Source: Globodera rostochiensis
Taxonomy: Eukaryota; Nematoda; Chromadorea; Rhabditida; Heteroderidae
Reading direction: 5' to 3'
NCBI GenBank assembly: GCA_018350325.1
Contig: JAEVLN010000001.1
Location: 4,927,254-4,991,253 of the forward strand
Length of the DNA stretch: 64,000 nucleotides
The notes beneath the pieces were generated by a model, which worked only from the letters and a program-made list of their open reading frames with translations, was not told where the DNA came from and ran no database searches. Below, in pieces: positions 22,738-42,900 of this stretch; positions within the stretch are counted from its first letter, which is position 1; every line of letters begins with the position of its first letter. The translations under genes were made by a program, and so were the position numbers.

Positions 22738-24638
22738 TTAAGTCGAGTCAGAAAATTTGAAGAGAATAATTTTATCGAGTGGAACTTTCGACTTGGAGAC
22801 GAATATCATGAAAGCGCCGCAGAAAATGGATGTAAAGGAGCTGAAGATGATCAGTGAGTTTCGGCGATTCTGTTGGAATAAGATAAAGATAAGAATGGAT
22901 TTATGGATAATTTGTTTGAATCACTGACCATTTCAATCTCCTTAAAGAAATAAATGCTCCAAAGTGATGCCACACAACCCGGCAGAGTGACCAGTACCTG
23001 TTAATGGAGGGGGGGGGGGCTTTTCACATTTTGTTATGACCGCTTTTTCTTACCGGGTAAGTGACCGTTGGGGTGAGAAGGTCGTTGGCCAAAAATAGGC
23101 ATGCCATGCCACAGCCCCAAATCGCTCCGCTCAACAACGACGGTAAAATGACCGTGCCGTTGACGGTCGGATTGTTGCGTCTAGATTTGGAATAATGGCT
23201 AAACAAAATGATCAGACGATCGATCACATTACTTAATGAGGGCATTGACGATGAAGATGGCGGAAGAGGAGAGAAAAATGCCAAAGTAATGCGAGAAAAT
23301 ATAATTGAGGCCACTTAGAGGCGCGTCGGGAAACAGCTCGAGATTGTCTTGGATGACTAAAAGCAATTATCAATAAAATGTAAAACAACCGGCGGTTCTG
23401 TCGAACTTACAGAGAACCGGGATTACTGTAACGGAGTAGAAAAATCCACAAAACAAGGCGAGCAAAATGCACCTGTAAAAAATAATATTTACAATTCAAT
23501 AAATTCAAATGTCTGATGTTTTTCATAATATTTTATTAATGATTTATTCCGAAGCTCTTCAAACATTTTTTAAACTCAATGAATTTTCCCCTCACAATAA
23601 TCGATGTGAATTGCGCATTATCCATTTGCGAAACCGTTTAAAAATCCCATCGGAAGTGATTGAAGACGACGAAGACAAAGAAGTGATCAGATAACGGCGT
23701 TTGTCCTCCACTCGCTGAACCGCCCCATCGCCCATTTTGAAGGTTAAATGGCGTCCATTTTCATCTTTAAAAGTTGCATTTCCCTTGCTTTATCGTTATT
23801 CTGATCTCGAAACGAATTATTCGACCATTTTGTGTGCTTTTTCCATCGTCCGCTTCGAATAAGCCCAACGAGTTCGGCGTGTTCGGGTAAACATGCGCTT
23901 TGTCTTTCGGCTGATTGGACTTTCGTACGAATGCGAAACAAATGCCTCTTCAAAGGAACATTTAAATTCGGAAAAGATCGTTCTCCCCCCCCCCCCAATT
24001 CGGACTTACCCCGTTAAAAGAATGACAAGGCCAACCACATTCAGCACTTCGTGTTCTGGCACTTTTGCCTTCAGCCCAAACAAACCGAATCTGCAGGCCG
24101 ACCAGCCCGTCAAAATGTTGGTGGTGGACCAGAGGAGAAGTGCCGGGCCCAGTCCCAGTCCGGCGATGACATATTGAGAAATTGAATTTGCTAAATAAAC
24201 GGCAATTAAATTAAACTAAAATCGCCCAAAAACCGAATGCCCAAAAGGCTCCACCGCCGGAGACAGTCAACCGAAGAGGCGGAGATCCCATGGCCGCGTT
24301 AACCCCAAAGCCGACAAACAAACTGCCAAGAGACATCACCCACTGGACGAACAAACAATCCCTAATTGTGGCGAATATCCGAATTGGCACATGCTAAGAG
24401 TAAATTGATCAAATCATTAATAAAACGGCTGGCTATTCAAACGTGCCATTGTGCCAAAACAGAAGGCCCCGAGCAGTACAATGACAATGCCGTAGGCAAG
24501 GTTGTTGCCGGCGCTGTTGCTGAACGATTTTTCAACCGTCACAAAGTCATCGAATTGCTGGGCGGCTGATAATTTGAGAAAATCGGTCTTCTTCACAGTG
24601 TCATTCAAACTTATCAACAATGCCTCGGGCATTTTCAT
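22738..24638 (-). CDS. TMEM144-like ten-TM transporter
   Basis: Multi-pass protein of the TMEM144 family (drug/metabolite-transporter superfamily; predicted carbohydrate transporter), in about ten exons. Start at 24638 (or Met at 24632). Landmarks: YGIVIVLLGAFCFGTM then HVPIRIF, LFVQWVMSLGSLFVGFGVN, GGGAFWAFANSISQYVIAGL, LGPALLLWSTTNILTGW and EHEVLNVVGLVILLTG. A long polar loop (PKDKAHVYPNTPNSLGLFE and a Ser-rich stretch) separates the halves. The second half has ILLALFCGFFYSVTVIPVL, NYIFSHYFGIFLSSSAIF, LPSLLSGAIWGCGMACLFL, LTPTVTYPVLVTLPGC, WSIYFFKEIEM and IIFSSFTSIFCGAFMIF. Stop 22738-22740. The intron 24394-24446 is GC-AG. Two introns carry homopolymer runs. The loop is longer than I would expect. 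Confidence 0.88.
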
Positions 24639-25483: not shown

Positions 25484-27746
25484 TCATCGCTTTGCACTTT
25501 CCTTTCCTTTTGGACAAATTTTCCGCATATTTTTGAAATGGGCACTGATCAGCGCCATCTCTTTAGACCCTTTTTCAAAATCATTGGCCAATAACACCGC
25601 CGACGTCATTCCCATGCTGCCCAAATGCATTGTTTGAATGATCCTTTGAGGGTTTAAAGAATTAATAATGAGTTTAGAATGAATGATTTGCCGCCCCACT
25701 TGAACACATTCAATGCGGTGACCAACTCAAGCCTGACCAGAACGAAGCCCCCGGCATAGGCCAATGCCTGGCTGAATTGCTGCAAGCCGTTGGTTGTGGC
25801 GAATCCAATGGCCTTAAATATTTTTGAACATTTGGCCGCAAATCTCACGTCGTACTCGTCCATTTTTGCTTTTGTTCAAGTAATTGCAGGCCAAGTGTTG
25901 AAGAAGTACTTGGAAGCAAAAGATTCCAGCGGCGAGAAGGCCCATCGGACGATTGTTTTGCAGAGAGGAGGCGATTGAGATCAGAATGGAGGCGACTCCG
26001 TAAATGAATTCGGCGGGGAGTAGCGGCACCCAAATGGGGGGGGGGGTAACATCGATAAAATGCATTAAATGACGGGAACTATTTCGGTCTGTCGTCCAGA
26101 ATCGATCCGTTTCGGGTTGGACTTCTCGTCAAACTTCGGGTCACGCTCGAGCTCATCTTGTAGCCGAAGGCCCATTTGTCCAAAGATCGTGTTCTGACAA
26201 TTCGAAACTTTTAAAATAACTGACCCCAAAAAAGGCAACCCAAAGAATGACAGCCCCAAATACGATCAGTCCCATAATGGCATAGGCCGAGCAAATCCAG
26301 AGGGCTTCTCTCACCAGGAAGTCTTTTTTACCTGTCACAATAATAAACAAAATTAAATTTATATAAAAATAAAAGGCACCCTTTTTTTGCTCAAAAATGC
26401 TGAAGAAAAGTCCGGTCAATCGGGTGAACACCGGATAAGCAAAGGAATGGACCAGACAAGCCAAAAAACCGACGGCACATTGGAAGGGCCATTTTCTCAG
26501 CAGAGAAAATTGAATTTTGACCCAACAACGTATAATCTGAAAGAGTTTTTGGTCGTTTTGGTGCTTTTTAAGGCTGCTGCTACCTCTGTCAAAGCTGTTG
26601 ATTTCCTGCTGGTGTTTGGCCAATTATTTCCCCGTTCCGCTTTATCCGCCGCGTTCGATGAAGTAGTCGTGTAATAATAGTCCACCGGATTCTTCTCATA
26701 TTCCAATTTGTCCAAATTCTCTTAAACTCCAAACATTGTTCTCCAATTCGTCTCCGTCCAGTCCCTTCTAACCATCGTGAACGTACTGCTGGGGTGCTTG
26801 GTGGTTCCCACACAAAGGCTTGAACTGCGCTCTCGCCTTGGCAAATTGGATGACGCTTGAACCGATCCCGGCGACAATTGTAAAAATAATGCCGGGCTGA
26901 CTGAGCTGCTTGGCATCCACTAAGAAAGTGCCGTAGCTGAATCAAAGGAATATGAGCGTCAAAAAAGCTTTTCTTTGAGTATACAGTCCGCCCAGAGACA
27001 GATTAAGGAAGAAAAGGCACAACGGACCGGCCAGAAATAAGCCCCTCACAATGGGAGGCTTTTGCTAAAATGTGTCAAAAATTACAATTTTTAATAAATT
27101 GCGCAACCTTTTCAAAAAGTGTGGTCCATGCGGTTACCAGAATCGGGACGACCAAAACGGGAATGGTAAGAGACAGCGAACTTAAGCAGCCGATCGATAT
27201 GCTAGCCACCAGAAAAGTCAAATCCCGAACAAAAATGGCAAGTTGCCTGAAATCAAAGGGAGCTGCTGGAGTTGTACAAAAGACCGTTTTGACCTTCTGT
27301 AAACGGTGGACAAGCGCACTTCGATGGTTTCATTGACTGTATTCATGGATATGTGATGGAGGAAAGGGAGCAAAACGGCGGCGGACCCGGCACTTAGAAA
27401 GTGTATTACACATTGAAGAAGCGGTAAGTGTTCGGGATGACCGTTTTTGGAAACGGAAACTGTCAAATAACTGAAGGGGGGGGGGGGAGGGATCGAATTT
27501 TATGGAAACGGAGTGGGGGAGGAGGGCTGACTGGCCGATGAACAGGTTGAACAGCGCGAACACCAGGCCCGAAAGGACGGCCAGAGAGAGATCGCAGCTG
27601 TACAAAAGCAATTCGCCAAGCGTAAAAAATGCCATCCTCTGCAGTGGAATGTATGCAAAACGTGAAAACGATCTGAACAGGCGAAAGAGTCGAACGATCG
27701 ATGGGAAAGTTTGTTTGAATTGGAACGAGAGACAATTTATCAACAT
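25484..27746 (-). CDS. ABCB-like membrane protein lacking nucleotide-binding domains
   Basis: Two half-transporter-like transmembrane regions joined by a short polar linker. The N-terminal half reads LYSCDLSLAVLSGLVFALFN, a first loop with KNGHPEHLPLLQCVIHFLSA, SMNTVNETIEVRLSTVYRR, QLAIFVRDLTFLVASISIGC, LTIPVLVVPILVTAWTTLFE and YGTFLVDAKQLSQPGIIFT ending SVIQFAKARAQF. The linker has EKNPVDYYYTTTSSNAAD. The second half begins LLRKWPFQCAVGFLACLVHS and continues with ICSAYAIMGLIVFGAVILW, NTIFGQMGLRLQDELE, ILISIASSLQNN, ATTNGLQQFSQALAYAGGFV, then the helix before the usual NBD (SMGMTSAVLLANDFEKGSKE), stop 25484-25486. No Walker A, signature or Walker B motif occurs after either half, and cytoplasmic loops are short. 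Frames are clean. The start is uncertain (27746 is the first plausible Met). Confidence 0.65.
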
Positions 27747-28624
27747 ATAATGGACCCGTACCAATCACGGGACAGAGTGGCTGCCACTTATTAATTGATA
27801 GCATCGATCACAGAATCCATTAACGGATGACGGCCGATCGCTCCAATTTTATCAATGACGTCTAAAGTCGGCCCTCAGGGATTTTGAATTCGTCGGAACA
27901 ATTCAACAATGAGCACATAAATAAATCATTTCCAACTTTACACAATGTTGACTCTCCCCCCCCCCCCCCCCCCCAGTCACTGATTTGTGAATGAATACGC
28001 ACGCAAAGGACTTTTTGATTTTTTCGTTTTAATAATCCGATTTAGAAGCGACTCGCCGCAGGGGGAAGGTGTAAGCTGTGGAGAAAACCAAAAAACATCC
28101 CTTGAACAGCTAGCAGGTTCATCAACAGGTGTCAATGGCTTCAAAATTAGAAATTAAATTTTAGTAATATTCGAATTTTCTAGTAATATTTGAAATCCTC
28201 TTTTAAAAAAAAAAATAGAAGTTGAATTTTACTGAGTTTATATATAATTTTTTATTCAAATTATCAAATTTTACTAGGAAAATTTAATTTTTAAATTATA
28301 CGCCGACATTTAATTTTAGAAATTAATTGTTTTTAAAGAATTGAAAGCTTTTGAGAAAAAAAAGGTCTTTGGTTGACGACGGCCCAGTGTTCTAAACCGC
28401 CCAGCAGCCTTGTCCAGCAGTTCTTGTGGGATGGATCATTCTTCTTCACCATTTGTACTAATTAACCACCATTTGTACTAATTATGCCTTTGTGAGTGCT
28501 CTCTTACATCATCAGACTCAATTGCCAAATTTTGCACATTTTAACAACAAAATTGCATATTTTGTTGCAAAATAGTTATTGTCTTTTCTTAATAGTTGAT
28601 TTTGCTGGGTCAGTCCGTAATTGA
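27747..28624. other. Intergenic, no supported gene
   Basis: Contains a C run near 27957-27975 and AT-rich repeats of short A/T words around 28140-28340. The true first exon of the ABC-like gene may lie here but was not identified. Confidence 0.45.
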
Positions 28625-30103
28625 TCAAAATTGGTCATCCCAAAAAGTGACGGATTTGGACGGCGGCATTGTCTTTGCGCGGACTTTCCTGCCAATGTGG
28701 TCCAGTCCCTGCTGTCCCTTTCGCGCAAACTTTGTTTCAGTTGTGGTGGCCGTTTCGATCATCGAAACAATTGAATTGGAATTAAATTATATACAACAAA
28801 AAACTCTCCTCAATTACTCAAAGTTTTCTTTTTTTTGAAGCCGAAATTTTTGCAGAAAATAATTTCCGTTAGCGATTGGGCCAATTGGACGCTGCCGAAA
28901 GTATTTATAGTGCCGCCCACCTGTCTCATCAAATCCTCCCGTTTTCGTTCTCCAATCGCTGCCATCCCAACTTTTCTCCCCATTTTCACAGTTTCACTCG
29001 CCTCGTCTTCATTTGCTGCCCCCGCACTTTCAGTATCTTCCCCCAGGAAATTCGCATAAATTCTATTGAAACTGAATTTTAAAAATCGGTTAAAATTATT
29101 GTCTGATTTATTGGACCATTCATTTCAAAATGTGACTTTCATCGCTCCGTTCACCTTTCACTTTCGCCCATTTCACCAGCAAATTCGATGTGAATTAACC
29201 CGAACATTTGGCCTAGCGCCCTTTGGAGGTTGGGGTCCTCTTCAAACAATTCCTTTTTAAATTCAAAATTGGCAAGCAATCGGATGAGCACGCGGTCGCG
29301 GAAATGATGAAAAATAATTTTGCGTATTTTGAAGTTTGAATCGAACTGCTTAATCAATAAATTTACGCTACAATCGGTCAGTTTGATCACAGTTAACCTG
29401 AAGGGGGAAAAGCATTGCGAAAACGGTTGGAATGGATTTATGGAGTGCAATGTTGAACAGCTCGGAAAGTTTGGACAGAAAATGCTTCTTCGTTTGGTGA
29501 TGGTTCGACACCAGCGGAAGCTCTGAGGGCGTGCAATTGAACATTTTGCAGGCGTTATTCTCCAGAGTTAAGGCAATCGCACCTTGCTAAGGCAGTAACA
29601 ACAAATTGCGTCTAATTTTGTAACGTCTTCACTTTTTTTATTTAATTCATTTTGTACAATTTGAATCGAATTAATTTATCAGCCCCCCCCCCTCTCCCCT
29701 AATAACCTCTTTTGAAGCAAGGAAATCGATCAGTTCCAGCTTGTCCTCGTCACTTTGAAGCACGCGAATTGCGTCTGCTATGGCTGCTCTCGCCAGAAAA
29801 TTGTGTTCATTGCCGCGCAATGCGGAAATGATGTCCAATTGGTAGCTGACAAATCAGTGGAAGGAGAGGCAATTAATTGTGTTGGCTTCGAGTAATTGTT
29901 ACGAATTTGCAAAATCCGGATGGGTCAAAATGCCCGCCGGCGGTGTCATTGTGAGGGCCGAGGAAGTGATCGGCGCGGTTAGTTTAGACTTGCTGCTGAT
30001 CGGCGGCGAAGTGATCAGCCCTGAAACAAATTGAGCAGATAAACACACAGCTTAATGCACTTAATGGCTCCGCAATTGCACTCATTTTGATGTCGGAAGA
30101 CAT
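28625..30103 (-). CDS. Conserved-looking helical protein of unknown family
   Basis: Complete seven-exon model with matching phases but no family I can name. It starts at 30103 (MSSDIKMSAIAEP), with a Ser/Thr/Pro-rich N-terminus (ISSKSKLTAPITSSALTMTP). A soluble, mainly alpha-helical body follows: YQLDIISALRGNEHNFLARA, IADAIRVLQSDEDKLELIDF, QGAIALTLENNACKMF, TKKHFLSKLSELFNIALHKS, FKIRKIIFHHFRDRVLIRLL and LFEEDPNLQRALGQMFGLIH. The tail is acidic then basic (ESAGAANEDEASE, GERKREDLMRQFARKGQQG, KVRAKTMPPSKSVTFWDDQF). No signal peptide or TM. The repeated helix pairs suggest a HEAT-like scaffold, and the basic tail a nuclear or RNA-related role; both are guesses. Confidence 0.6.
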
Positions 30104-36900: not shown

Positions 36901-39900
36901 GACGTTGCCCCGTTGTTTGGCGATATTTTTGCTAAGAATCGGTTAGGGACTGGTCGATATGCGTTCAGAGTGATCGCGATGGATTCGGCAGGGCAGGTTA
37001 ACTTCTGCGGGAGACTGATCAGAATGAATGTTGTGATTTAGGAGGGGGAATGCGAAGTTGAGATCAAAACGGAGGGAAACTTCTCATCGTCGCCACCAAA
37101 TTATCGTCAGAAATCGCAATCGTTTAGTAACTTTGTGGACAAAGACAGGCCATTTGTAGTCCCAATTCGCAACCGACGGGACCGAGCCAACGATTTTGTC
37201 ATTTCTCTTCGCGAAGATCAACCTCTCGGCATGCTCAAACAGGTCGAAACTGATCAAACGGAAGAACAATGGCGGTAAAGTTGAAAGCATTTTCAGCGAA
37301 TTCCCCTAAACGTTGATGAGCGGGTGTCCAAGATGAATTCCGAATCGGAATGTTTGAGAGTCAACGAGAACGGCAGCCTGGAACTGATCGAAGCATTGAA
37401 CTTTGAACGGACTCCCGAACTATTTCAAGCGGTGCAAATCGACGGAATGCACAAAAGTGAGTCTGTTTTTCCAATTCTTTGTTCCTCAATGTATGTGTTG
37501 TCAAGACAGCTCCTCTTTCTCTTTAACTATGCATGAGTCTTCAAAAAGCTTATAATTAAAAAAGAGATGAATGGAAGGGACCAACCATCCAATGCAATGG
37601 CGGCCGTCATATAAATATCTCTAGGTTCATTAGGGAAGAGCATCAGAGGGGGGGGGGGGGGGGGGAAGGGGGGGGGGGGGGGAGGGGGGGCGGGGGGGGG
37701 GGGGAGGAAATGGGTGATGAGTCATCGTCAAAGGGAGAAAGAAGACGAATCAAATGGGCCGGGATGGAAGGGATATTCGGGAAAAAGAGAAATAATCCGA
37801 AGTGATTAGTGAGACCAATTAAGGTATTTACGAACGTTTAAATTCCAAATTCAGCCCGCCTTCAAACGATTAGAATTGACGTTTTGGATGTCGACGAACC
37901 ACCGGCCTTTCTCAACCAACCTCGACCTTTTCTAGCCGTTGTTCCTCCACTGGAAAACCTCCCCCAGGGCTTCCAGGTGTTCCGTTTGGAAGCCAAGGAC
38001 GAAAAGGGCGAGGGAAGTGCAGAAAATGTGACCTTCAGACTGATCAACACAGAACGTAAAAAGAAAACCTTCAAATCACTTTTTTATAAGCATTTTCTAA
38101 AAGTACAGCCCCAAATTCATTCTCTGTCGATGAATTGAGTGGAGCCATTCGTACGGCACTTCGAAAGTATTCGTCGGGAAGCACTTATAAAGTTTTTGTG
38201 GAGGCGTTGGACAGCAGTGGGGCTGAGGAACGTGTTCAAAATGTTTGTTAATGGTACAAAGTCCAATTTGGTCTGAACTGCTTGTCCCGAAGGGTCCAAC
38301 CGCCGTTGGCCGTTCTGTCGAAGTTGCCGTTGTCGAAGTGTTCGCCGGTGACCGTCCTCCCCAATTTCTGCGCCAAAAATACATCGCGACAGTGGCCGAA
38401 TCGCTGGACATAGGGCACAGTGTGTTGCAGCTGGAGACCGTCTCTTTTCCCTCAGTCAGCGAAGAAAATGGATTGCCAAAGGTACGGACGACGTCCGATG
38501 GACGGACGGAAACGGACTTTCCAATTAACGATAATTGCCACTCATTAGGGTCGGACAAAATACAGTCTCTTCGAGAATGGGAAAAACAGTGCGAAATTCA
38601 CTCGAGAGGCGCCCGCATTCTTTGGGATCCACGAAAGGACAGGACTGGTCTATCTGAGGAAGCCTTTGGACTACGACGATAGAACTCGGCCAAGGCTCTT
38701 TCATCTGATCGGTTTAACAGCAGGCTTTATCTCAAAACCATGGAACTCTTCAGGGATTGCCGAAGAGGATGGACAGGAATCTTCAGTACCTGTAGAGATT
38801 TCGGTCGTCGATGTGAACGACAACGCGCCTCAATTTGTTCAGCCCATATTCACCTCTTCAATTCGTGAGGACATTCCGATCGGAGAAACTATTTTGAAGG
38901 GTAAATGCGCGAGTTTAGGAGAAGTTATTTGTAATAATTTGTTGCTAATTGCTCAGTCGATGCGGTCGATGCCGATTCGGGGCTGAATTCGGCACTTCTT
39001 TATGCTGTCGACCATCCTCAGTTTATCATAAACGGACGCGGGGAATTGCAGAGGAAGCCGGGCTCGAAAGCATTGGATGCTGATCAGGTAAGCAAAATTA
39101 AGGGATATTAGCGACGGTCGAGTTCAGCTCCGAGAGGGCCACTTTCTCTACCGTTTCAACGTGTCCGTGTCCGATCAGGGCAGCCCTCCTCTCATTTCCC
39201 ATGCCGTTGTGCACATCCAAACCGAAAATGTTAATGATGAAGGACCTATATTTGTGCCCACCGCAGAATATATTGCAACGGTTATTTTTTTTGCATAATT
39301 TTATTTTGTTAAATCAAAAATTGTTCAGGTTGCGGAAGACGCTCTCGGGGGAACGCCTGTGTTGCAGGTGCAGGCAGTCGATCCGGATCGTGACCAAGTG
39401 ACCTACACATTCGTTAATGAGGGCGGAGACGAATCATTGGACAATCATTTATTTCAAATTGATCCTGACACCGGTTAGGAGGCAATCAATCTCAAAGTCA
39501 CAGAAATGCTTCTCTAGGTTTGATCAGACTCCGTCCATTCGTTCGTAACGATCAGCTTCTCTCGATGGACTCACCATACAATTTGACTGTCATTGCTCGA
39601 GATGACGGCTCATGCTGTTCGCAACGACGAGACGTCGGCATGAGACATACCGCAAAAGCGACGGTCCGGTGGAACATTAAAACCATTTGAATTACGCCTT
39701 GACTTGACATAGAAAGAGAAGCTACAAATAAAGATTCCCTCAAAAAGTAAGCGGGGAGCTGGAGAAGGTTAGTCGGTAGTTCACCAGGTTAGAACATCCG
39801 GTCGCTCAAGACGCCGCTCGAGGCCGTCCGCCCTTTTTTCTTCAAAAGCTTTTTCCCAATTTGAAGGTACTCGTTGGAGTTCTCGACTTGAACAACAACA

Positions 39901-42900
39901 AGCCGGAGTTCCCCCATTGTGCCGACTACTCCCGGTTGGCCATGGTCGAAGAGGGTCAATATCGCGTGAATACCCCGCCGATTCTCCGCGTGGAAGCCAT
40001 CGACCACGACTCGGGCCGGAATGGCCAAGTGTCTTACTCGCTTTACTACGCCCGCACCGAGTCGCGAAAGCCCTTTCTGATCGATCCCGAAAGTGGGGAA
40101 CTCCGTCCTTCGCCATATTTTGTGTTCGACCGCGAGCTAAAAGCTGCCGAAGAGGTTACCATCAAGGCGACGGACAAGGGCGACAGACCGTTGATCGGCT
40201 TCTGCCAGTTCAAAGTGCAGGTGGGCGATGTGAACGACAACGCGCCGACCTTCGACAAGCCTATCTATGAGACTTCGATGGGAAGAGCTGCTCGGGTTGG
40301 CACTGCCGTGTTGACAGCACTGGCGGAAGACCGTGACGGGCCGCGGAACGCTCACATCAGCTATGCCCTGGCATCGGACGAAACAGAGTCCGGCGAACAC
40401 CTTCAAGACCACCAGTTCTTCACTCTTCCTGACCCGGAATTGGGAGAAATTGTGCTCTCCCAAAAGCTCCCGACAGAGAAAACCCGTCTCCTCTTTTCCA
40501 TTATTGCAACGGACAACGGATTTCCGACGGCACAAAGCACCGCGGCACAGGTCGTCGTTCGAGTGCACGAAAAGCAACAGAACGCACCCCAATGGCAAGC
40601 ACATCCGGAGTGTCCCCCGAGGCTGACAGTGTCGGAAGATGTGCAGAAAAACACAATTCTGTTGAGATGTTATGCCATCAGTGGGGAGGACAAATCGAGG
40701 CCGATTTCCTACAAATTGTCTAATGGGGTCAACCCAGACCGGAACAGCAAGCAGACGTTTCGAGAATTCGAAGAGAAGGACCCGAAACGTGCGGACGTTT
40801 CCTGGGTGATGGTGCGGAACATGGAGAGTCTTGACTATGAGCAGGCCAGGAATTACACTCTGACCCTGACGGCAACCGACTTGATCTCTTCGGCAACATC
40901 CGAACGCCACTTTCACATCGATGTTTTAGATCAAGTGACCGCTTTATTTTAATTTCATTAAACATTAAATTCCATTATTAATTTGTATAATAATAAATTT
41001 GCTGAAGGAAATAAATTCTTATGGATTTAAATTCAGAATGACGAAGTGCCACGATTCATGGTGGACCGTTTCATTGGCACAATTGACGAAGAGTTGACAC
41101 CTGCCGAGTTCCAAGACCGGAATGGCGGGAAACCGATAACGGTAGTCACGGCAGAGGACGCAGATTCTCCGGGGAAACAAAGCGAGATTCGCTACCGGAT
41201 TCTGGACTCGCCGAGCCTCCGTGCCACGAGTTTGTTCCGCATCGATGAGATCAGCGGGGCGATCTTTCCATTGGAGAAGTTTGATCGAGAAAGGACGGAT
41301 TCGTTCATTTTCGATGTCGAGGCGCGCGACAGTTCGCCGTCTTCTCTTCCCGGAACTAAGCTGGGAATGCCAAACAAGGACCTGGTGAAGGTGCAAATAT
41401 TTGTAGCCGACTCCAACGACAACGCCCCGCACTTTCTGCACCCGCTGTACACCGTGCAAGTGTTGGAAAGCGTAGAAGTGGGCATAGAGCTGATCACCGT
41501 GAAGGCTGACGATCCGGACAGCCAATCGACGCTTCGATACTCGCTGTACTCCCCTTCGGGCGAGAAAATACCCTTCGGGGTCAGAACCGACTCGGGAATG
41601 GTCTACGTGAATGACCAACTGGATTTTGAGTCCCGACAAGAATACCATCTTGAATTGCTTGTCAGCGACGGAAGGCACAATGTGACGAGCGGAGTTCGAG
41701 TGTTGGTGCTGGACGAGAATGACAACGCGCCGGAGTTCGAGCGGCAACGGTACGAGGCGGTAGTTGAAGAGGGACCAACGAAACTTCCGAAATTATTATT
41801 TACGGCAAAATCGATGGACAGGGACAAGGTAAATGTGGCAATTCGGTCAATAAACACAATTTTGAAGAAAGAGACGAACGGTCGAATTGTCTACGCTTTG
41901 GAGGGGCAGGGAGTCGGCGACCACTTCCGAATTGGGCGAGAGGACGGCCGAGTCGAATTGGTCTCCGAGTTAGACAGGGACCCGCCGAACGGAGTGCCCT
42001 TTTGGCGCTTTATGGTCCAAGCGGTTGACAGAGACGGGCAAGGACTGGTCGGATATGCGGACGTTCAAGTACAGGTCGGCAAGGACAAATTGAGACGGAA
42101 TAAGTTGAATGGTAATTTTAGGTGCTTGACAGAAATGACAATTCTCCACGCTTTCCTGGCGAGATGTTCGGTTTTGTTGATGAGGAGCGGGAGCCCGAGG
42201 CTTTCGTGACGACCGTCGATGCTGTCGATCAAGACGACCCGCAGACGGGCAATGTGGGAGATGGATTTTGAAGCATTTAGGGAAATGTGACGAGTTCAGG
42301 CACAACTGGAGTACAGTCTGCTCAGAAACAAGGAGCTTAACGGGAAGCCCATCTTCAGAATTGACCCTCGAAGCGGAAAAATCTTCGCGATGGTCTCTGA
42401 AATTAAGAAGAGATTCTTTAAACTTTTGTTGTTAGGTTCGCTTAGATCGGGAACAATTAGCAGAAAGACAATTCCAAATTCAAGTCAGAGCGACGGACGG
42501 CGGAATTCCCCAGAGGGAAGGTAATATAAATAAATCGAGATTAGAGAAAATCGCATTAAATTCACTTTCTTTAAAATAAACATTTGCCGGAGCGAGTGAA
42601 CTAAATTATTTTAGCAAATAAATTTTGATTTAATGTTTTTGGAAACAATTTTTCTCGCGCAATCATTTTGTCTGCTTTCAAAGGCTTCGGTAATGTGAGC
42701 ATCCGATTGCTGGATGTCAACGACAATCCGCCCGCATTCGAACATTCCGAATACCGGGTCCACGTGCCCGAGACAACTCCGAAAGACGCGCCCATTTTGA
42801 CTTTGGTGGCCAAAGACCCGGACGACGAGGCCATGTGAGTTGCCGGAACGAACGAATTGTTCCATTCAAAATGCCGTTGTTGCGACTTTTAGTGACAACC

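Follow-up and report, generated by a model that had tools for sequence, protein, structure and literature searches.

A conserved P-glycoprotein-like membrane protein without ATP-binding domains in tylenchomorph nematodes

Results

A 12-exon gene for a two-halved membrane protein

The window analysed here is a stretch of 64,000 nucleotides from Globodera rostochiensis (contig JAEVLN010000001.1, positions 4,927,254 to 4,991,253), and all positions are given within it. Between 27635 and 25484, a gene of 12 exons on its minus strand encodes a membrane protein of 538 residues, built of two halves like a P-glycoprotein (P-gp) and free of the nucleotide-binding domains (NBDs) of ATP-binding cassette (ABC) transporters. 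All 11 introns are bounded by GT..AG and are 43–61 nt long, and the exons join into a single open frame that runs to the stop at 25484. An initial annotation, made from the sequence letters, had followed the two halves exon by exon and in phase, and the spliced model agrees with this. Its frame and stop are retained, but the 580-residue first model built to its coordinates differs from the final one in two places. The donor of intron 8 was set between TGG and GTTGCC, giving an intron of 46 nt instead of 31 nt that matches the annotated proteins of G. pallida and G. rostochiensis. The start codon is likely the ATG at 27635 rather than that at 27746, because the proteins of Heterodera trifolii (P0001) and G. 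pallida (P0002) begin there and the sequence TGCAG, which resembles a splice acceptor, precedes it closely.

Independent annotated proteins support 10 of the 11 junctions, with 12 or more of 13 residues matching each time, and seven of these are found in the annotated G. rostochiensis protein P0003; the loop-3 junction (26122–26079) is the single one without this support. P0003 is identical to the model across 312 residues (62–373). Its annotation joins the gene to the upstream gene and ends in loop 3.

Table 1. Features of the NBD-less gene and neighbouring sequences in the window (TM, transmembrane helix)
Feature	Position	Strand	Description
Coding exon 1	27532..27635	-	ATG at 27635; TM1; upstream ATG 27746 possible, without support from relatives
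Exon 2	27294..27470	-	Loop between TM1 and TM2, then TM2 and what is left of cytoplasmic loop 1; junction also present in P0001 and P0002
Exon 3	27108..27246	-	TM3-TM4; conserved R101-D102
Exon 4	26985..27064	-	TM5; loop 2 cut to a few residues at the preceding intron
Intron 4	26937..26984	-	Phase 2, codon before YGT; position and phase match P-gp C45
Exon 5	26773..26936	-	TM6 and beginning of linker
Exon 6	26584..26720	-	Polar linker at the expected site of NBD1
Exon 7	26380..26536	-	TM7
Exon 8	26240..26331	-	TM8; donor as in P0002 and P0003
Intron 8	26194..26239	-	Phase 0, before NTIFG; position and phase match P-gp C45
Exon 9	26123..26193	-	Beginning of loop 3; 3' junction is the sole uncertain splice
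Exon 10	25856..26078	-	TM9-TM10; P0007 has MVPLLCTEFFYG, P0005 has MVPILSAELYYG
Exon 11	25700..25812	-	TM11; conserved TNGLQQxxQA; loop 4 missing at the intron just before
Intron 11	25644..25699	-	Phase 2, codon of VF[K]; position and phase match P-gp C45
Exon 12	25484..25643	-	TM12, conserved C-terminal KICP tail, stop
Downstream neighbour	24006..24638	-	TMEM144-family transporter gene (PF07857, E 6.4e-27, pieces joined by eye)
Upstream neighbour	28921..30103	-	Weak HbrB match (E 0.056); fused to the NBD-less gene in P0003
Two long open frames	39780..42206	+	Putative cadherin repeats in the translations

Many short poly-C and poly-G runs are present (27956–27974 in the window, and others), some of them within intron 1 of the gene and immediately ahead of its TM9; these may disturb assembly and gene prediction at the locus. 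Scans for Rfam families and tRNA genes found nothing in the window.

Absence of ATP-binding domains

A polar linker of ~60–75 residues joins the halves where NBD1 would be expected, and the stop directly follows the second half, much as first read. Pfam ABC_tran had no match at E ≤ 10 in the 580-residue first model or in any of the eight relatives described below, partial ones included. A PF00005 profile search of the 92.6-Mb genome listed 21 places, with 19 of 112 candidates scored, and none of these lies in the window. When the NBD of a local P-gp was compared with the window by tblastn, only three weak matches were returned (E 4.0, 6.0 and 9.2), against 9e-52 for its own gene as a control. 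Five regular-expression matches to Walker A or signature motifs in the window all lie outside the gene and, by eye, are not NBDs.

C-termini could be compared in the window, P0001, P0004, P0005, P0006 and P0007, with P0004 and P0006 coming from one species; P0002, P0003 and P0008 have other ends and were left out. All six carry [KR]I[SCA]P, 3–9 residues ahead of the stop. A tail common to several genera argues against missing NBD exons, an explanation rejected on the strength of this tail and the negative NBD scans, and the C-terminus predicted for the window looks genuine. The ABC superfamily is defined by its NBDs: a member has one or more of them, complete with Walker A, signature and Walker B, either within the chain or next to it. 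None was found, and by this strict definition the protein is not an ABC transporter.

Shortening of the cytoplasmic loops

The intracellular loops (ICLs), described as short in the initial annotation, were counted by hand against a P-gp of the same genome (C45). From TM3 to the TM5 intron there are 68 residues, compared with 122 in P-gp C45, which is 54 fewer across the ICL2 span. From the TM8 to the TM12 intron there are 135, compared with 201, which is 66 fewer across ICL3 and ICL4. ICL1 also appears short, judged by eye only, and full-length coupling loops ICL1–4 are not present. By this count, the loops on which NBDs dock became smaller as the NBDs were lost. For loops 1, 2 and 4, the missing stretches coincide with or adjoin introns 2, 3 and 10, which looks like exon loss; later intron gain could be the alternative.

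These loops bear on whether the protein is one part of a split ABC transporter that receives its NBDs in trans from another gene. Bacteria do have separate genes for transmembrane domains (TMDs) and NBDs (PMC13316013). With no ATPase and with shortened docking loops, coupling to ATP by NBDs in trans is unlikely, and no NBD gene was found in the window by tblastn with the local NBD. A split transporter is therefore very improbable.

Relatives and their conservation

Three protein database searches gave 3, 7 and 4 matches among 7,993, 7,998 and 7,997 scored candidates (E limits 0.001, 1 and 10, respectively). Together these represent eight distinct entries, which are complete or partial relatives in four genera: H. 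trifolii (P0001), G. pallida (P0002), G. rostochiensis (P0003), Ditylenchus destructor (P0004 and P0006), Meloidogyne enterolobii (P0005), a European Nucleotide Archive (ENA) contig of 923 bases (P0007) and Ditylenchus dipsaci (P0008). Seven of the eight are 389–653 residues long and the ENA piece has 226. H. trifolii shares 79% identity with the model, G. pallida 94% across its shorter length, and the other four that were aligned 42–56%. The named entries are annotated only as hypothetical or uncharacterized. D. destructor, M. enterolobii and H. trifolii are all classified in Tylenchomorpha, to which Globodera and D. dipsaci also belong. The search for orthologues lacking NBDs in other tylenchids, suggested in the initial annotation, gave these relatives without an NBD match. 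Genome searches with both halves matched only the NBD-less locus, with no paralogues.

Some of the public gene models look partly wrong. Those of G. pallida and G. rostochiensis end in loop 3, D. dipsaci P0008 leaves the family sequence after TM9, and H. trifolii P0001 lacks the start of TM9 that is present in other relatives. P0007 has a 45-base in-frame stretch read through at the VF[K] intron site and has no intron before TM11. These features suggest genomic DNA from a nematode that has not been sampled and that has fewer introns.

Conservation is strongly uneven along the protein. Identity to H. trifolii is 45/47 in exon 3 (TM3-4) and 24/26 in exon 4, compared with 25/45 in the linker exon, and identity to D. 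destructor P0004 is 26/37 in the TM11 exon and 4/23 in the linker. The linker starts with VHDENLDKLEYEKNP, which is conserved within the cyst nematodes; outside these the linker is not conserved. TM11-12 is the best conserved part, with a polar cluster (N456, Q459, Q460, Q463, N483, K486 and Q489) identical in four species, and the TM3 pair R101-D102 is identical in the same four. Among the window, P0001, P0004 and P0005 there are 139 identical columns, in which E316, just after TM7, is the sole glutamate; within helix ranges set by eye, the identical acidic residues and histidines are D15, D102, H297 and D507 (end of TM12). This unevenness suggests that the protein is under selection.

The possibility raised initially that this is a decaying P-gp gene, the frames of which have not yet broken, is extremely improbable. 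Several donors and acceptors are below the best consensus by eye, and the gene is cut short or joined to another in the annotations of P0002, P0003 and P0008. However, the frames are open across the comparable parts in four genera, the C-terminal tail is common to the relatives, and the contrast between TM3-4 and the linker is not that of decay. What the analysis shows is a spliced gene, conserved among tylenchomorph nematodes, that encodes a single two-halved chain with shortened loops and no NBDs. A family that has lost ATP coupling and kept the membrane body, as was first proposed, is supported by the relatives in four genera without an NBD match, their common tail and their uneven conservation.

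Descent from P-glycoprotein

Descent from P-gp, which had been read by eye, has support from three lines of evidence, none of them strong alone: sub-threshold matches to ABC_membrane, low-confidence models like ABCB1 and the bile salt export pump (BSEP), and three introns common with P-gp C45. The initial annotation had named Pfam and structure prediction as checks. ABC_membrane was matched below threshold in four of the eight entries (best 20.8 bits, curated cut-off 28). Structure prediction, made on the relatives P0005 and P0004 in place of the window's own spliced protein, gave folds to which ABCB1/BSEP structures are closest and in which nearly all matches are ABC proteins, but with low confidence.

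Three of the 11 introns coincide in position and phase with three of the 13 in P-gp C45. The detailed comparison was with this one P-gp (locus L016), while 13 loci (L016–L028) were scanned by tblastn. In a second gene of P-gp type, on C11, the frame continues across the site of the TM5 intron; none of the loci is put forward as the parent. At L016 5070–5240 a short tandem repeat starts at the TM8-intron donor of P-gp C45 and copies the donor several times.

Searches of the PDB with sequence only gave weak ABC matches (best E 0.17, 0.19 and 0.03), mixed with unrelated chains, and NCBIfam gave one weak MsbA match in one of four relatives (E 0.15). Weak Pfam matches to Cpta_toxin, ABC2_membrane and DUF3671 (E 0.44 to 8.6) were taken as chance. 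The weak sequence similarity to ABC proteins and the low-confidence models would also be expected of an unrelated family with 12 TM that merely resembles P-gp. The three common introns, the collinear weak matches and the nearly ABC-only fold matches make this a scarcely credible origin, and P-gp remains the probable ancestor.

Discussion

An ATP-independent carrier as the favoured mechanism

The mechanism ranked first for this protein is that of an ATP-independent carrier or facilitator, which was not in the initial list of channel, sensor or partner; it is put forward tentatively, at close to but not above an even expectation. The body would work without ATP by alternating access or as a facilitator, with an amphipathic small molecule or lipid moving down its own gradient or together with an ion. 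The binding site would be the ancestral P-gp pocket, whose walls are formed by TM5-6 and TM11-12. In P-gp, TM11-12 is part of the pocket wall. A carrier or facilitator is favoured because the best conserved part of the nematode protein, with its polar set, corresponds to this wall. Compaction of the loops may let the body fold and exit the endoplasmic reticulum (ER) without NBDs. Taken as a whole, the best explanation is a P-gp-derived, NBD-less body working without ATP, most likely as a carrier or facilitator, and the balance for and against it is considered to be even.

Several points weigh against this. The searches for relatives reached only proteins up to 1.75 times the query (~1,000 residues), so that longer, NBD-bearing close relatives are beyond their range. 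None of the eight entries reaches the ABC_membrane cut-off, with no match in P0005 to P0008 or in the 580-residue first model. The TM8 intron match hinges on choosing the first of several tandem donor copies in P-gp C45, and that at TM5 on a by-eye alignment at YGT, where MAFFT placed a gap. The two models have predicted local distance difference test (pLDDT) values of 53 and 45, and the second matches P-gp at a TM-score of 0.25. The 139 identical columns show no conserved glutamate ladder as in SbmA.

The main rival is a non-transporting receptor, scaffold or regulatory partner, which would move nothing itself; on binding a ligand, or one half of a functional P-gp, it would signal, sequester or damp in a dominant-negative manner. 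A single NBD-less locus in the genome searches is consistent with this, and the [KR]I[SCA]P tail and the VHDENLDKLEYEKNP linker start of cyst nematodes could serve as docking motifs. Tariquidar, a ligand of the TMDs, rescues P-gp that lacks NBDs (PMC4705942, PMC4505440), and a review mentions an engineered Bombyx mori ABCC2 without NBDs in connection with Bacillus thuringiensis (Bt) toxin pore insertion (PMC8145640). Conservation that peaks in the pocket-lining TM11-12, rather than in the loops or the linker, is unexpected for a pure scaffold, and outside the cyst nematodes the linker is not conserved. This role is considered rather unlikely. The same polar cluster and TM3 charged pair, identical in four species, could instead line an ion channel, a P-gp body gated without ATP like a stripped-down CFTR. 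No selectivity motif was recognised, there are few charges, and nothing in the sequence points to ions over solutes; a channel is quite unlikely.

Comparison with known systems

P-gp/ABCB1-type exporters (C45; human ABCB1 and ABCB11) share with the nematode protein the two six-helix halves in one chain, the TM order, the predicted fold (at low confidence) and three introns of matching position and phase. They differ in having NBD1 and NBD2 and full loops, with 1280 residues in human P-gp against 538 here and the ~60–75 residue linker. That some transporters are single-domain is a general remark in a review (PMC10300789). A term search of an opinion article on the ABC genes of plant-parasitic nematodes (PMC7715011) found nothing on missing NBDs. 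No description of the nematode family, or of an NBD-less eukaryotic P-gp lineage, was recognised in the open-licence literature, judged mainly by titles and abstracts.

Laboratory truncations of P-gp keep their loops. Those of Loo and Clarke have the same domain content as the nematode protein. Human P-gp without both NBDs is reported to be retained in the ER with a loose fold and to be rescued by tariquidar (PMC4505440), and the separate TMD1 and TMD2 have likewise been studied with tariquidar (PMC4705942). The truncations are thus trapped unless rescued by drug, whereas the nematode gene is natural and conserved. A natural family must have solved this ER retention. P-gp without its NBDs misfolds in human cells, and nematodes that kept such a body provide a natural experiment on the need for NBDs and coupling loops.

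The closest working parallel is the bacterial peptide transporter family SbmA/BacA (SLiPT), of which the nematode family is not a member and in which the TMD of a type IV ABC exporter is likewise without an NBD or coupling helices. SbmA is proton-driven and is speculated to have originated from an ABC TMD parted from its NBD (PMC13316013). ATP-free working has been shown for SbmA, whereas for the nematode protein it is inferred. SLiPTs form homodimers, carry a glutamate ladder and have two additional helices in each protomer, whereas the nematode protein is a fused single chain, probably of separate origin from a eukaryotic P-gp. The nematode family has no conserved glutamate ladder, and the mechanism of SbmA is therefore not directly transferable to it. 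The SbmA_BacA Pfam family had no match at E ≤ 10 in the 580-residue first model or the eight entries, and SbmA is not among the predicted-fold matches listed, which shows little.

The species carrying the NBD-less gene are crop parasites. It is possible, with doubt outweighing confidence, that the family represents a eukaryotic class of ATP-independent transporters, secondary or facilitative, derived from a P-gp that lost its two NBDs and its coupling loops; this class would parallel bacterial SbmA and, as far as seen, occur only in plant-parasitic tylenchomorphs. It would then illustrate a route from a primary pump to an ATP-free protein, a step described, in the literature examined, for bacterial SbmA.
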